This document shows, piece after piece, positions 1 to 6,427 of a stretch of DNA of 64,000 nt (positions within the stretch are counted from its first letter, which is position 1; every line of letters begins with the position of its first letter). The translations under genes and the position numbers were made by a program. The stretch is from Bacteroidota bacterium (lineage in GTDB: Bacteria > Bacteroidota > Ignavibacteria > Palsa-1295): contig JAUZNX010000001.1 in assembly GCA_030706745.1 (NCBI GenBank), positions 310,001-374,000 on the forward strand, in the 5' to 3' direction. The notes beneath the pieces are model-generated. The model saw only the letters and a program-made list of their open reading frames with translations. It did not search any database and was not told where the DNA came from.

Positions 1-1916
1 GAAATCGAAATATTGCCAGTCGAAATCAGTGTACCGCCGATATAGGTGTTACCATTCGATGCGTTGATATTAAACATATTGTTCGCCACCGAGAAGTTGC
101 CCCCAAGGTTGAAGATGCCTCCAACGCTGATCGTGTTCGTCAGATTGGTGATCGCGAACATTCCGTTGTTGATGTTGATATCACCAGCAATCGAAGTCGT
201 ATGGTTCGCAACATTCACAATAAACTGGTTATTCGCAACGGAGAAGTTGCCTCCGGAATTGAGCGTTCCGAACACGTTGGTATTGCCAGTGGCGCCAAAC
301 ACGGTGAACATGCCATTGTTGATATTCAGGTTTCCGGCGAAGGAGGTGTTGCCGGTCAACGCGTTAACGATAAACATGTTGTTCGCGACCGACAAGTTGC
401 CGACAGTGTTGAATGTGCCGAAGACGTTCGTGTTGCCCGTCGCACCAAACACCGTGAACATGCCATTGTTGATGTTCAAGTTTCCGGCAAACGAAGTATT
501 GCCGGTCAGTGCATTGACGATGAACATGTTGTTTGCGACCGACAAGTTGCCGCCCGAGTTGAACGTGCCGAACACATTCGTGTTGCCAGTCGCGCCGAGC
601 ACGGTAAACATCCCATTGTTGATCGTCAGATTGCCAAGGAACGACGTGTTGCCATTCAGTGCATTGACGATGAACATGTTGTTCGCAACCGACAGATTGC
701 CGACGGAGTTGAATGTGCCGGAGACATTCGTATTTCCGGTTGCTCCGAGCACGGTGAACATCCCGTTGTTGATCGTGAGATTGCCGTGAAAGGACGTGTT
801 GCCGTTCAAGGCATTGACGATGAACATGTTGTTTGCGACCGACAGGTTGCCGATAGAGTTGAACGTGCCGGAAACATTCGTATTTCCAGTCGCTCCAAAA
901 ACGGTGAACATGCCGTTATTGATGTTCACGTCGCCCGTCGAAGCGATGATGCTGATCATCCCGTTATTGATGTTCAAATCGCCCAGGAATGAGGTGTTTC
1001 CATTGAGCGCATTGACAATGAACATGTTGTTCGCGACCGAAAGATTGCCGCCAGAGTTGAACGTCCCGAAAATGTTCGTATTGCCCGTGCCTCCGAACAC
1101 GGTGAACATCCCGTTGTTAATATTCACATCGCCGGTCGAGCCAAGCACCGTGAACATGCCATTATTGATGTTCAAATCGCCGAAGAATGATGTGTTGCCG
1201 TTAAAGGCGTTGACGATGAACTGATTATTCGCGACGGAGAAATTACCGCCGGAGTTGAACGTACCCGAGACATTCGTATTTCCGGTTGCGCCCAATACAG
1301 TGAACATCCCATTGTTAATTGTAAGGTTGTTCGTGAGCGAAAGATTGAAGAAGCCCGGTGATGAGGTGATCGCGATGTCCTGCGGCGTGCCGAAGGTGAT
1401 CGTTCCGGCGGAGTCGGTCAGCAGCAACTGATTCGGCGTGCCGCCAATCATCAGATCGGAACCGACGCCAGATAGCGGATGGCCGTTGATCATGACGTCC
1501 GCAATGTAGTCCGTTGCCATCTTGCTCGCCGTGATCGAACTATCGACGATGGACAGAGCATACGGTGAGGAGGACAGCGCAGTTCGTGGAAACAGCTCCG
1601 CTCCACCATCGATGGAAATGCCCAGCCACAGTGGCACCGACATCTGCGGCAGTGGCTGTTGCGAACCGAGCTGGACCATGAAGAGGCCCGACTGAATGGA
1701 CGCGCTGAATGTGTCCTCCCACACCAGGTCCGAGCCTGTCGCCGAACTGTAGAGCCGGATCGTCAAGGAATACGAGCCATTGACCGGAAGTCCGGAACTC
1801 TGGATGACCCCTTGATAGGTAATCGTGCGAGGCACATTCTGTGATTGCGCGGCATGAGTCAGAAAAAGGGCGATACATGCTACGCAATACGAGGCAACTC
1901 GTGAAAGCTTGAACAT
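1..1916 (-). CDS. Secreted repeat-rich fibre-like protein (5' part; runs off the window)
   Basis: The start is the ATG at 1916-1914 and the frame stays open to base 1, so at least 638 residues are coded and the C-terminus lies outside. Residues 1-26 form a signal peptide ending near SQ. Residues 27-125 resemble the N-terminal domain of exported Bacteroidota fibre proteins (TITYQGV..GLPVNGSYSLTIRLY..G). From about residue 200 a 50-residue unit repeats (INNGMFTVLGATGNTN, then SGTFNS, NLSVANNMFIVNAL, NGNTSF). The 150-bp DNA period is exact over 372-822, with one extra 16-residue half unit near 950. Proteins of this layout often end in a peptidase S74 intramolecular chaperone, which would lie beyond the window; that part is inference. 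A role as a cell-surface fibre or adhesin is likely but not shown. The plus-strand open frames over 46-1224 are shadows of this repeat. Confidence 0.8.
   Translation of the reverse strand, partial: MFKLSRVASYCVACIALFLTHAAQSQNVPRTITYQGVIQSSGLPVNGSYSLTIRLYSSATGSDLVWEDTFSASIQSGLFMVQLGSQQPLPQMSVPLWLGISIDGGAELFPRTALSSSPYALSIVDSSITASKMATDYIADVMINGHPLSGVGSDLMIGGTPNQLLLTDSAGTITFGTPQDIAITSSPGFFNLSLTNNLTINNGMFTVLGATGNTNVSGTFNSGGNFSVANNQFIVNAFNGNTSFFGDLNINNGMFTVLGSTGDVNINNGMFTVFGGTGNTNIFGTFNSGGNLSVANNMFIVNALNGNTSFLGDLNINNGMISIIASTGDVNINNGMFTVFGATGNTNVSGTFNSIGNLSVANNMFIVNALNGNTSFHGNLTINNGMFTVLGATGNTNVSGTFNSVGNLSVANNMFIVNALNGNTSFLGNLTINNGMFTVLGATGNTNVFGTFNSGGNLSVANNMFIVNALTGNTSFAGNLNINNGMFTVFGATGNTNVFGTFNTVGNLSVANNMFIVNALTGNTSFAGNLNINNGMFTVFGATGNTNVFGTLNSGGNFSVANNQFIVNVANHTTSIAGDININNGMFAITNLTNTISVGGIFNLGGNFSVANNMFNINASNGNTYIGGTLISTGNISI
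372..1320. repeat. 150-bp in-frame tandem repeat within the fibre-like gene
   Basis: Near-identical blocks start at about 372, 522, 672 and 822 (spacing 150 bp). The next comes at about 1020, after a 48-bp extra half unit. Each unit codes 50 residues on the minus strand, so length changes by unequal recombination would keep the frame. The high nucleotide identity between units points to recent homogenisation. Confidence 0.9.
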
Positions 1917-2066
1917 TGGTTTTTTGGTAAGTGGGGAACTATGAATTGACGGAAAAAGCGAATAAGACGCTGTGAAAACTATTTGGATTAATGAAACGTG
2001 CCTGTCATTTTGCAAAAGCTTCCCGATAGAAAGCGTCCTTGTTTGACAGATCTTTCTTGTTCTGAA

Positions 2067-2089: not shown

Positions 2090-2213
2090 AAAATAGAGAC
2101 AGTGATCCTCCGGGTTATGCTGCGATTCTAAGTCTCTTCAATTTCGAGGGTCAATCGCTCGCAACTTTGCCTCGGGTCCTGTGTTCCCCATTAGAGACAT
2201 GGAGCAGGCATCA

Positions 2214-2927
2214 ATGGCAATCGGCGAGGAGCGAGAGTCACACGCGGAGGATCAGTCCCCCCGGGGTGGCTTGGCTGCTGGTTTGCCTCTGCGCACGAAG
2301 GGTCAGGATTCCAGGGCCAATCGGGACCAGGAAAATGCTGAGGACCTTGCACTGTTCCGCGAATTCCTTGCGGGAATGGGGAGCGCATTGCCTGAAGGTC
2401 GCCGGCAAGCACGAGAAGCTTATACCAAGATCTACCTGCGGTATCGCGATCGGGTCTATGCCTACTCGCTGAGGATGCTTTCGAGTCAGGAAGAGGCACA
2501 GGACTTATATCAGGAAGTATTTCTTCGGGTTCTGACTCGCGCGCAGACGTTCGAAGAAGAGAAGAGCCTCGGCGGGTGGATCTTCACGATCGCTCATAAC
2601 CTTTGCCTGAACAAGCTTCGAGATCGCAAGCCGCACGATACGATAGACGATATGAGGCCAGGCCTTGGGGCGAGCCCGCACGACCCTCTCGTCGTTCGGC
2701 CGCCCGAGGATCTGGGCGAGTCATGGCGCGACCGGATCGAGTGGGCGATGGCCCAGCTTCCGGCCGAACAGCGCGAGGCGCTTGTACTCCGGGAATACGA
2801 AGGGCTTAGCCATCAGGAAATCACAGAAGTATTGCATGCGAGTATTCCCGCAATCAAAAGCCGGATCTACCGCGCAAAAGAGAGCCTCAGAGTATTACTT
2901 GGACCATATTATAACGAAACAATATAG
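2214..2927 (+). CDS. RNA polymerase sigma factor, ECF / sigma-70 family
   Basis: The product is a 237-residue extracytoplasmic-function type sigma factor. After a polar, low-complexity N-terminus of about 50 residues comes region 2 (RDRVYAYSLRMLSSQEEAQDLYQEVF split over core helices, then GGWIFTIAHNLCLNKLRD). Region 4 follows near the C-terminus (LPAEQREALVLREYEGLSHQEI, then an SRIYRAKESL recognition helix). The ATG at 2214 is chosen because GGAG lies nine bases upstream. An in-frame ATG at 2199 and a GTG at 2181 are alternatives. The next gene, 60 bp downstream, starts with an anti-sigma-like domain, so the two likely form a sigma/anti-sigma pair. It lacks region 1 and region 3 of primary sigma factors. 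Confidence 0.92.
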   Translation: MAIGEERESHAEDQSPRGGLAAGLPLRTKGQDSRANRDQENAEDLALFREFLAGMGSALPEGRRQAREAYTKIYLRYRDRVYAYSLRMLSSQEEAQDLYQEVFLRVLTRAQTFEEEKSLGGWIFTIAHNLCLNKLRDRKPHDTIDDMRPGLGASPHDPLVVRPPEDLGESWRDRIEWAMAQLPAEQREALVLREYEGLSHQEITEVLHASIPAIKSRIYRAKESLRVLLGPYYNETI

Positions 2928-2987: not shown

Positions 2988-4274
2988 ATGACACTGAACG
3001 AACGCATTCTGGAATTTATGGACGGCTCGCTTCATCCGAACGATGAAGCAGAGCTGTTGCACACGCTCTCGGTCTCACCCGAGAAGCGGAACGTGCTCCG
3101 GGACTTTATGAACCAGAAGTCGCTGCTCTCACGCGACCGCGAGTCAATTGCCGTACCGTATGAAGCGGAGCAATCGCTCTGGGCGAGTGTCGATGCGATC
3201 CTCCCGGCCACATCCTCGACGGTGGCTCCGCAACCGGTCGCGTTGATGCAACCCGCTGCCGCAGGTTTCTTTTCGCGTATGATGACAGCGTCCGCCGCGG
3301 CCGTCGGCGCGCTTGGTCTATTGATTGGGATCGGCGCCGGCTATTTCGCGGCCACACAACCAGTGAACGTGAACATGGAGGCAACGAGAGCGTTGCCAAG
3401 CGCGCCGAAGATTGCGTCGGTTTCTGCGAGTTCCGTGCAGCACTCATCTCCGACGTGGATAAGCGCTGCATCCGATTCGCCAATACAGCCTATGTCTCCA
3501 CTCGGAATGGAGCACTTCGGTCTTGCGAGTCTATTCAGCTCTGCAGCGGCAAGCGAATCGCTACCACAATCTGCAGAGGCTCCAATCGCGTATGTTCAAC
3601 CTCGTGACCAGCAGCCAGAAGTATTGCACAGCATTGGCACGGATGGCGGCATTGCGCCACAGTTCCATAATACGCCGATTGCGGAACCCCGCCGATCATT
3701 GCTCGAACGGTTCGAGTTTCATGTGAGCGAGAGTTTTGGCCGGCAATTCCCGAATAGTGCCGCGACGAACGTATCGTTACCTCTGATGACGAATTCTTCA
3801 GTCGGTACCTATTTTCAAGTACTGCCGCATTCGAACGTGCTATGGGCCGGCGCAGATTATGGCACAGCGAACGTAACACGGAAGGGCCTCTTCACGCATG
3901 CAGGCAATCCGATCGATCCACTGCAAAATGTTCTGGCAGGCGATACGGTCCACGAACAAATCAGCTACATGGCAGCTCTCGCGCAGCTGCGCTTTCCATC
4001 GATTGCCGGCGCGGAATTGACGTTTACGGGCGGCTATGGATTCGGTAGCCTTGGACAGATGATGATCGGAGAACTCGGATTTCACTACGATCTCACTCAT
4101 GAAGTTGGGCTAGTCACCGGGCTTCGAGTTGTCCGATTTAGTTACGATTTAACCGCAGATAAGAATGCGGCCATCCACTCTGGCGCCGGTTCACTGGTCG
4201 TACCAAATGGCGTTGGCGATGCCGCCCCAAGCCTGAACCTCGAACTCAACACGGGACTTTATTTCCACTTCTAA
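2988..4274 (+). CDS. Anti-sigma-like transmembrane protein with C-terminal outer-membrane-type domain
   Basis: The protein has 428 residues. Residues 1-75 resemble the cytoplasmic helical domain of anti-sigma factors (ILEFMDGSLHPNDEAELLHT, then SPEKRNVLRDF); the zinc-binding HxxxCxxC motif is absent. Residues 99-121 form one membrane segment rich in Ala and Gly. About 100 residues of Ser/Ala/Pro-rich linker follow, then a C-terminal part (about 230-428) with alternating beta-strand-like stretches that ends in LYFHF. A terminal aromatic residue like this is typical of outer-membrane barrels. It lies directly after the ECF sigma gene, and its stop codon overlaps the start of the lipoprotein gene (TAATG). 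The likely role is to hold the sigma factor and sense envelope state. The barrel assignment is inference from sequence texture. Confidence 0.7.
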   Translation: MTLNERILEFMDGSLHPNDEAELLHTLSVSPEKRNVLRDFMNQKSLLSRDRESIAVPYEAEQSLWASVDAILPATSSTVAPQPVALMQPAAAGFFSRMMTASAAAVGALGLLIGIGAGYFAATQPVNVNMEATRALPSAPKIASVSASSVQHSSPTWISAASDSPIQPMSPLGMEHFGLASLFSSAAASESLPQSAEAPIAYVQPRDQQPEVLHSIGTDGGIAPQFHNTPIAEPRRSLLERFEFHVSESFGRQFPNSAATNVSLPLMTNSSVGTYFQVLPHSNVLWAGADYGTANVTRKGLFTHAGNPIDPLQNVLAGDTVHEQISYMAALAQLRFPSIAGAELTFTGGYGFGSLGQMMIGELGFHYDLTHEVGLVTGLRVVRFSYDLTADKNAAIHSGAGSLVVPNGVGDAAPSLNLELNTGLYFHF

Positions 4275-4921
4275 TGTCAGCCGCTTATGACATGGCCATC
4301 GTTCGAGCGCTTCGCCTGGTGATACTCGCCGGGCTATTTGCGCTTACTGGCTGCTCGATGGGCACGGTTCCGATAAGCTCGACTGCGACCGTACAAGACT
4401 ATTTTTTCCCGCTGCAAAATGGCCTGGTCTATAGTTATAGCCGGTTTGAGACGGGTCTCAACCAGAACATTTATGATACGGTTGCTTGCCGGTTAGTGAT
4501 CGGCCAGACGATGGCGGATAAGAACGCGCTCGTCGATACGAAGACTGGCAATGTACTTTTCTTCATCGGTTTCACGCACGATGCCAACAACAATCTTGCG
4601 GCCACCCTTTCGACGGGCGACACGACACTGCTGGCTCTCGATGGCGTCTTAGAGGATAGCGCGACTTGGGTTGCCGATCCTATCCATCATATCCGAGCAA
4701 CGGTCATCGGTCGCTATGATGACTATTATCTTCCTCCAAACCGGACCGTTCATTTTTCGGACGTCGTTGTGATCCAGTACCATCGTGATGGAGATGATGC
4801 AAGCGTGTACACGCTTCGCTTCTTCGCAAACGGTCATGGCCTGATTCGTGAAGCTACGTTCGCCGGCGGAAACACAGAAATTGGGCATTTGCAGGTATTA
4901 GGAATTCAATACCCAAGCTGA
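4274..4921 (+). CDS. Lipoprotein, unknown function, coupled to the sigma/anti-sigma genes
   Basis: The product has 215 residues. A hydrophobic segment ends in the lipobox LTGC (Cys27), so it should be a lipid-anchored envelope protein. The rest is beta-rich with no recognised catalytic motif. The start overlaps the preceding stop by one base (TAATG), which suggests translational coupling. The protein may form an envelope sensing module with the sigma factor and the membrane protein; that role is inferred from position only. Confidence 0.75.
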   Translation: MSAAYDMAIVRALRLVILAGLFALTGCSMGTVPISSTATVQDYFFPLQNGLVYSYSRFETGLNQNIYDTVACRLVIGQTMADKNALVDTKTGNVLFFIGFTHDANNNLAATLSTGDTTLLALDGVLEDSATWVADPIHHIRATVIGRYDDYYLPPNRTVHFSDVVVIQYHRDGDDASVYTLRFFANGHGLIREATFAGGNTEIGHLQVLGIQYPS

Positions 4922-5015: not shown

Positions 5016-5255
5016 ATGATGTTTCGTCGATCGAAGGCCCATGCCTACCAATCACACGCCAGCGGCCCAATGGCTCTGCTGCATGCGGATTCCTTCGCAA
5101 TTCGCGCGATTCTGTTTCTTGCGATGAGTCTGGTCTTTTTTCTCTTTTTGAAGATTACCGAACGGAAAATCCCAACAGGTCTTGTCCCGGATAGCACCGA
5201 GGACACCATTCATGCCGCGCCACCACCGCACGTCGGCACACGACGCATCCCATGA
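5016..5255 (+). CDS. Small single-pass membrane protein, unknown
   Basis: The product has 79 residues, with one hydrophobic segment at about residues 28-46 (IRAILFLAMSLVFFLFL) followed by a basic and proline-rich tail. Its stop overlaps the start of anmK (ATGA), which supports a real, coupled gene. No family is recognised. Confidence 0.5.
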   Translation: MMFRRSKAHAYQSHASGPMALLHADSFAIRAILFLAMSLVFFLFLKITERKIPTGLVPDSTEDTIHAAPPPHVGTRRIP

Positions 5256-6427
5256 TGGCACCACTGGGGACCGCCTCCGAGCGGAGCGAGAGTCTATATA
5301 TCGGCATCATGACTGGTACGAGCCTCGACGCGATCGATGTTGCAGTGTGCCGATTTGAGAACAAGATCGTCGAGCTAATACATTTTCACAGTTCAGCATG
5401 GCCTAAACAGATCCGCACGAAGCTTCTTACATTAGCCTCAGCGGAAATGGTCCGAATGGATGATGTCGCCACGCTACATTTCGCACTCGCTAAAGAATAC
5501 GCGAGGTCCGTCAACGAAACGCTGCAAGAGGCAAGACTCGATGCCAGACAGATCTGCGCTATTGGCCTACATGGCCAGACTGTGCGCCATCTTCCGGCGC
5601 AGGGCGCAACACTCCAACTCGGCAATGGAAGCGCGCTTGCGGCGCTCACTGGGATCGACGTCGTCAGCGATTTTCGTGCGGCGGACGTAGCCCTCGGCGG
5701 ACAAGGTGCTCCGCTGATGCCAATGTTCGATTATGCGTTTCTCAAAAGCGACACACTCGACCGCGCCACGCTCAATATCGGCGGAATTGCGAACATCACC
5801 TGGCTTCCGAAAGGCGCGAGTATCGAAGACGTGATCGCCTTCGATACTGGCCCAGGAAACATGTTGCTTGACCTGACAAGCCGGAGATACCTTGACGAGC
5901 CGTTCGATCGTAATGGCGAACACGCTCGCGAGGGATCCATCAACGACCACATGCTGAGGGAATTACTGGATTGTGCCTATTTCGCGATGGCTCCTCCCAA
6001 GACAACTGGTCGTGAAGTGTTTGGTGAGGCGTTTATATCGCCGATCATGAAATCAATCGGCACCAGAGAGATCACTGTCGACGATGCACTTGCAACGTTG
6101 ACAGAATTGACCGCGCGCTCCGTCGCTCAAAGTTTTCGCTTCGTAGGTTCCGCTGGACCTTTTGAATTAGTTGTCAGCGGCGGCGGAATCCGGAACATAC
6201 TGCTGATGGAACGACTGAGCGTGAATCTCCCTCAGGCACACATTGTCTCATCCGATGTATTCGGAATTTCCGCAAGTGCGAAAGAAGCCATTGCGTTTGC
6301 GTTCTTCGCTAAAGCATTCCTTGAGGAACTTCCAATTCATCTTCCTCGAACGACCGGAGCGCACAGCCGCGCGACGCTCGGTACGCTGGCAAAAGCGAGG
6401 CGCGAAGAATCATTGATTTCACAATAA
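5252..6427 (+). CDS. anmK: Anhydro-N-acetylmuramic acid kinase
   Basis: This 391-residue enzyme phosphorylates and opens 1,6-anhydro-MurNAc released by peptidoglycan turnover, giving MurNAc-6-phosphate for recycling in the cytoplasm. Family motifs are clear: IGIMTGTSLDAIDVAV (phosphate loop, residues 17-32), GLHGQTVRH, DFRAADVALGGQGAPLMP, NIGGIANITWL, FDTGPGNMLLD and the C-terminal VSGGGIRN. The length fits the family. The ATG at 5252 overlaps the end of the small upstream gene, so it is probably co-translated. The MurQ etherase partner is not in this window. Confidence 0.97.
   Translation: MMAPLGTASERSESLYIGIMTGTSLDAIDVAVCRFENKIVELIHFHSSAWPKQIRTKLLTLASAEMVRMDDVATLHFALAKEYARSVNETLQEARLDARQICAIGLHGQTVRHLPAQGATLQLGNGSALAALTGIDVVSDFRAADVALGGQGAPLMPMFDYAFLKSDTLDRATLNIGGIANITWLPKGASIEDVIAFDTGPGNMLLDLTSRRYLDEPFDRNGEHAREGSINDHMLRELLDCAYFAMAPPKTTGREVFGEAFISPIMKSIGTREITVDDALATLTELTARSVAQSFRFVGSAGPFELVVSGGGIRNILLMERLSVNLPQAHIVSSDVFGISASAKEAIAFAFFAKAFLEELPIHLPRTTGAHSRATLGTLAKARREESLISQ

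Follow-up and report, generated by a model that had tools for sequence, protein, structure and literature searches.

A predicted barrel-bearing anti-sigma factor in a putative three-gene envelope-signalling module of a Kapaibacterium-like member of the Bacteroidota

Described systems and organization of the locus

In anti-sigma factors such as RsiW, MucA and RseA, a helical anti-sigma domain in the cytoplasm is connected through one membrane helix to a soluble extracytoplasmic end. In signalling systems composed of FecR and a TonB-dependent receptor, an event at the outer membrane is conveyed to an ECF sigma factor. A third arrangement is found in the Dma proteins of the gut bacterium Bacteroides thetaiotaomicron, in which an anti-sigma domain at the N-terminus is connected by one helix and a disordered tether to a barrel at the C-terminus; these proteins adjoin ECF21 sigma factors, regulate vesicle formation and are described as occurring solely among the Bacteroidota (PMC13088901). 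In the PorXY-SigP system of Porphyromonas gingivalis, an ECF sigma factor is tied to type IX secretion: SigP acts with a two-component system and controls genes of T9SS components, and the CTD protein PorA affects signalling (PMC4800418, PMC7712824).

The window, i.e., the whole stretch of 64,000 nucleotides that was analysed, belongs to a Kapaibacterium-like genome of the Bacteroidota, the nearest named relative of which is a Candidatus Kapaibacterium MAG with 66–68% identity. Near one end of the window an ECF sigma factor gene is followed by an anti-sigma gene, a lipoprotein gene and, further downstream, anmK (5252–6427). The features of this locus are collected in Table 1. The anti-sigma ORF (2988–4274), the existence and description of which were verified, starts with ATG and encodes a protein of 428 residues. 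Its stop codon (4272–4274) overlaps the ATG of the lipoprotein gene (4274–4276) in the sequence TAATG, as had been pointed out in the preliminary description of this DNA. The start of the sigma factor gene is placed at ATG 2199 rather than at GTG 2181 of the ORF list, because nucleotides 2181–2185 form the -10 element of the predicted promoter. On the minus strand, window positions 1–1920 are occupied by a divergent gene for a secreted protein, with a signal-peptide-like start near 1917, which contains units of ~50 residues (NMFIVNALNGNTSFxGNLNINNGMFTVFGATGNTNV). The gene shows DNA tandem repeats of 150 and 198 bp and continues past the edge of the window.

Table 1. Features of the sigma/anti-sigma/lipoprotein locus (positions in the window).
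Feature	Position	Strand	Basis
-35 element GCAACTT of predicted autoregulatory ECF promoter	2161..2167	+	Invariant in 12/12 genus/family orthologues; region otherwise unalignable
-10 element GTGTT, 13 nt after -35	2181..2185	+	Invariant in 12/12; spacing 13 throughout
ECF sigma factor gene	2199..2927	+	Pfam Sigma70_r2 (E 4.5e-18) and Sigma70_r4_2 (E 4.3e-15); start from orthologue alignment and promoter
Anti-sigma gene	2988..4274	+	ORF, NCBIfam match, homologues
Cytoplasmic anti-sigma domain, residues 1–75, four helices, cysteine-free	2988..3212	+	Model with pLDDT 75–80 over most of 1–72; PDB matches
Inner-membrane helix, residues ~97–123	3276..3356	+	Kyte-Doolittle scan; GxGxGYF glycines conserved in orthologues
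Ser/Ala/Pro-rich periplasmic linker, poorly conserved, residues ~124–235	3357..3692	+	Hardly any conserved alignment columns
Predicted outer-membrane beta-barrel, residues 236–428, ~8 strands by eye, final F	3693..4271	+	Profile chain to PF13505-type barrels, beta alternation, weak Pfam matches in paralogues
Lipoprotein gene, 215 residues, lipobox LTGC, Cys 27	4274..4921	+	Overlaps anti-sigma stop by TAATG

From its sequence, the locus probably constitutes an autoregulated envelope-signalling module of three genes, comprising the ECF sigma factor, an anti-sigma factor that would span both membranes, and the lipoprotein. The anti-sigma protein shares with RsiW, MucA and RseA the order of a cytoplasmic helical domain and one membrane helix, but its chain goes on to a predicted outer-membrane barrel. 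As in FecR-dependent signalling, an outer-membrane event would be conveyed to an ECF sigma factor. In contrast to that system, however, the operon encodes neither a FecR domain nor a receptor, and both functions would share one chain. With PorXY-SigP the module has in common an ECF sigma factor with a predicted link to type IX secretion; the differences are that the promoter sites of the window family precede cargo-like genes and that the anti-sigma factor is fused to the putative barrel.

Full-length homologues of the anti-sigma protein, with 32–68% identity, are present in the genus and the family, with orthologues in all six other searched genomes of the genus and in all but one of the six family genomes. 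The genome itself contains six copies. The five further paralogues (L022–L026, on contigs C2, C16, C17 and C18) include four of 409–495 residues which possess the C-terminal part, and a short one (L026, 219 residues) which is barrel-less. Sampling across the phylum yields matches in 35 genomes of the same class, the majority of which contain several copies. The proteins matched by the profile beyond this class are mostly ~185–250 residues long and contain the N-terminal domain without the barrel. The homologues in genus and family, together with the paralogues across much of the class, indicate that the architecture of this ORF is more than a product of chance.

Domain architecture of the anti-sigma protein

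Model and sequence comparisons support the presence of an RsiW/RseA-type (RsiW/MucA-like) anti-sigma domain at residues 1–75, in agreement with the cytoplasmic anti-sigma-like domain of the preliminary description. An NCBIfam anti-sigma model matches the protein with an E-value of 3.6e-5, which falls short of the cut-off of the model, and a Pfam search with E-values up to 1 gives zero matches for the protein itself. Among 24 family members, matches are obtained to the anti-sigma models NF010501 and NF052375 (12 and 10 members, respectively) and to the Pfam families zf-HC2 and RseA_N, the latter in five members with a best E-value of 6.6e-4. The AlphaFold model of residues 1–72, calculated with a two-row alignment, consists of four helices with pLDDT values of mostly ~75–80. 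In Foldseek's own list of PDB matches to this model RsiW ranks first (Z 5.6, rmsd 3.0 for 52 residues), and the other anti-sigma factors include MucA (Z 4.8 and 4.5), RslA (Z 3.6) and ChrR (Z 2.3). These Z values are modest given that the domains are helical, yet four distinct anti-sigma factors are listed. None of the Foldseek E-values is below 0.001, and a whole-profile search against PDB sequences returned nothing relevant. The evidence from the model, NCBIfam and Pfam is concordant. A zinc anti-sigma factor with an HxxxCxxC motif is not the type present here, since the protein has no cysteine. A FecR-type regulator was considered as well and rejected: neither the protein nor any of the 24 family members contains a FecR domain according to Pfam at E-values up to 1.

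A single membrane helix follows, the borders of which in the Kyte-Doolittle scan differ slightly from those given previously (99–121). The Ser/Ala/Pro linker that had been noted behind the helix is likewise observed; it comprises ~110 residues of low-complexity sequence, with pLDDT values below 30 in the shallow model from two sequences. In 45 family members the distance between helix and barrel ranges from 107 to 255 residues, with a median of 141. An extended linker of at least 107 residues would be long enough to cross the periplasm.

The beta-rich C-terminal part, described earlier as ending in LYFHF, is present at residues 236–428, and most homologues share an aromatic last residue with its terminal sequence NTGLYFHF. 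The strand pattern can be read by eye as eight strands, connected by short turns and long loops. Several lines of sequence evidence agree with the earlier suggestion that this part is an outer-membrane barrel, which we now predict to be a small one. Weak Pfam matches occur among the 24 family members, to OMP_b-brl in two and to OMP_b-brl_2 in one. In hhalign comparisons the C-terminal parts of the orthologues match those of the paralogues at 98.4% (E 6.4e-15), and the paralogue C-terminal parts match PF13505 barrel proteins of the same genomes at 93.8% (E 1.7e-7). Reversed controls gave 5.9% against the paralogues and less than 1% against the barrels. Compared directly with known barrels, the orthologue C-terminal parts score a weak 1–18%, and the connection to barrels thus passes through the paralogues. 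The in-out alternation of hydrophobicity expected of beta strands is strong in the C-terminal part (z 3.9, with none of 1000 column shuffles as high) and close to the values of true barrels (z 4.4 and 5.0), whereas the anti-sigma domain, the linker, the lipoprotein and the sigma factor are without signal. AlphaFold runs on the full protein and on residues 230–428, calculated from an alignment of only two sequences, yielded no usable barrel model (pLDDT below 30).

Lipoprotein partner and predicted regulon

The conservation of the lipoprotein, previously put forward as a possible sensor partner, as a neighbour of the anti-sigma gene is strongly supported. A lipoprotein-type gene is located within 150 nt downstream of the anti-sigma gene in 42 of the 49 family operons, versus 12 of 175 background genes (Fisher p 3e-27). 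The seven exceptions include some with apparently non-standard lipoboxes, as judged by eye. In E. coli, an Asp residue at position +2 of a lipoprotein governs its membrane placement. The window lipoprotein lacks Asp at this position (CSM), and therefore, by analogy, the outer membrane is its likely location, beside the predicted barrel.

Upstream of the sigma factor gene, the occurrence of GCAACTT-N13-GTGTT in all 12 orthologues indicates autoregulation. The AAC in the -35 box is typical of ECF promoters. As the -10 element is found ~13 nt before the ATG, the transcript is expected to have a very short leader. Scans for sigma-70-type promoters and for terminators gave results at chance level. 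The exact motif occurs at 25 sites in nine genomes of the genus and family, compared to two for the reversed pattern. Nine of these sites are located ahead of sigma factor genes. Among the 16 others, eight precede genes that score above the cut-off of TIGR04183 (T9SS sorting domain), one precedes a gene just below it, and two precede lipoprotein genes. The enrichment of sorting-domain genes at the 16 sites corresponds to a binomial p of 8e-5 with a background of 10%, which is an upper estimate of their share per genome, assuming ~3000 genes. For genomes of 3.5–4 Mb, G000–G008 encode very many type IX sorting-domain proteins: those of the TIGR04183 type number at least 150 per genome, with at most 308 candidates.

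In the genome that contains the window, the operon itself has the sole exact match to the full motif, and the regulon there may therefore be tiny. With one mismatch allowed, 22 sites are found versus 17 for the reversed pattern, which is near background, so that single sites in this genome serve as leads only. Two of them (G000:C4:109200 and G000:C2:321139) precede genes for proteins with C-termini that by eye resemble T9SS sorting domains, and one of these genes resembles a gene of a relative that has an exact site. A variant motif, GTAACTT-N13-GTGTT, occurs at seven sites in the genome (e.g. L204, L212, L213 and L216), one of which is located ahead of the paralogous sigma factor gene on contig C2 (G000:C2) and several ahead of genes for lipoproteins or secreted proteins. 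These sites are likely to represent the regulon of the C2 paralogue, and the paralogues thus seem to use separate promoters. The GCAACTT-N13-GTGTT motif was not found ahead of many paralogous sigma factor genes elsewhere in the class, and is therefore specific to the subfamily of the window protein. Judged from the predicted promoter sites, the window family appears to control secreted surface proteins.

Relation to Dma proteins and proposed mechanism

The preliminary description contrasted a direct connection between a sigma factor and the outer membrane on a single chain with the usual separate receptor. That such a connection would be unprecedented is not supported, since the Dma proteins of B. 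thetaiotaomicron are built in this way as well (PMC13088901) and the layout of the window protein is therefore already known. The anti-sigma N-terminus, the one helix, the long disordered tether and the adjacent ECF sigma factor in one operon are all shared with Dma1 and Dma2, as is the C-terminal barrel, which in the window protein is predicted from sequence profiles and periodicity. The window family, which comes from another class of the phylum than Bacteroides, nevertheless differs in several respects. The window protein has a 75-residue RsiW/RseA-like fold, whereas an N-terminus of ~40 residues is seen in the Dma-like proteins of other Bacteroidota, with sigma factors of a different clade. 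A lipoprotein gene is the regular third gene in the window family, and the module has a predicted link to T9SS cargo, whereas Dma proteins are linked to vesicles and polysaccharide loci.

The common domain order with an upstream sigma factor gene (PMC13088901) and the placement of both barrels within the OMP_b-brl families would agree with common descent, in which case the window protein would be a diverged member of the Dma family rather than an independently built one. We regard this as unlikely in view of the profile comparisons and the sigma factor tree. The profiles were compared with those of nine Dma-like proteins of other Bacteroidota, which were chosen by architecture (a sigma factor, a short N-terminus, a helix, a linker and a PF13568 barrel) rather than by their identity to Dma1 of B. 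thetaiotaomicron. Against this set, the N-terminal domains of the window family could not be aligned by hhalign (0.4%, about equal to the reversed controls, although the fold may still match), and the C-terminal parts score 1–5%. In the tree, the sigma factors of these Dma-like operons, which represent the Dma side of the comparison, form a clade of their own (support 100/99). The window sigma factor and its kin are apart from these and group with other Bacteroidota sigma factors (support 100/94), the deep branches being weakly supported. The sigma factors that group with the window sigma factor are adjacent to barrel-less anti-sigma factors of 185–193 residues that are related to the window N-terminal domain. 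This pattern suggests that the fusion of the barrel to an RsiW/RseA-type anti-sigma domain took place independently of the Dma-like proteins.

Even less probable is that residues 236–428 form a soluble periplasmic beta domain, which would sense the periplasm or the lipoprotein in a protein that spans the inner membrane alone. The lack of a confident structure from two-sequence AlphaFold and the weak matches of the orthologues alone would be compatible with such a domain, but the beta alternation is as strong as in true barrels, the paralogue C-terminal parts match PF13505 barrels at 94%, the aromatic C-terminal residue is conserved and the linker always contains at least 107 residues. A proposal of a different kind addresses how the sigma factor is released, and can be combined with the three-gene module: the barrel could act as an anchor dependent on the signal or as a reporter of folding, and a cut in the linker or the helix would free the sigma factor by regulated proteolysis as for RseA and RsiW. 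RsiW and MucA, which the N-terminal domain resembles, release their sigma factors by proteolysis. Against this, the operon encodes no protease, and the sequence of the tether is unconserved, unlike a specific cleavage site. We consider regulated proteolysis a serious possibility, with somewhat less than an even chance of being correct.

For the three-gene module as a whole, the following mechanism can be envisaged. The N-terminal domain, which from gene order and fold we infer to bind the adjacent sigma factor, would retain its cognate sigma factor at the inner membrane, and the barrel would reside in the outer membrane. The lipoprotein may bind the barrel or the linker and in this way gate the anti-sigma factor. 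A change in the outer membrane, or in the load of T9SS cargo or surface proteins, would travel along the tether by pull, displacement or cleavage and free the sigma factor, which would then activate the operon that encodes it, along with a limited number of surface and secreted proteins.

Compared to the Dma system, the distinct inhibitor domain, the regular lipoprotein partner and the readable regulon appear to be new. If the proposed module is correct, an outer-membrane barrel has been fused to a cytoplasmic sigma factor inhibitor at least twice in bacteria, and a direct tether between the outer membrane and transcription would be a general solution and no peculiarity of Bacteroides. The regular lipoprotein partner provides a concrete candidate for a sensor or gate. 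The conserved promoter, which renders the regulon readable, also suggests that the state of the cell surface is linked to type IX cargo.
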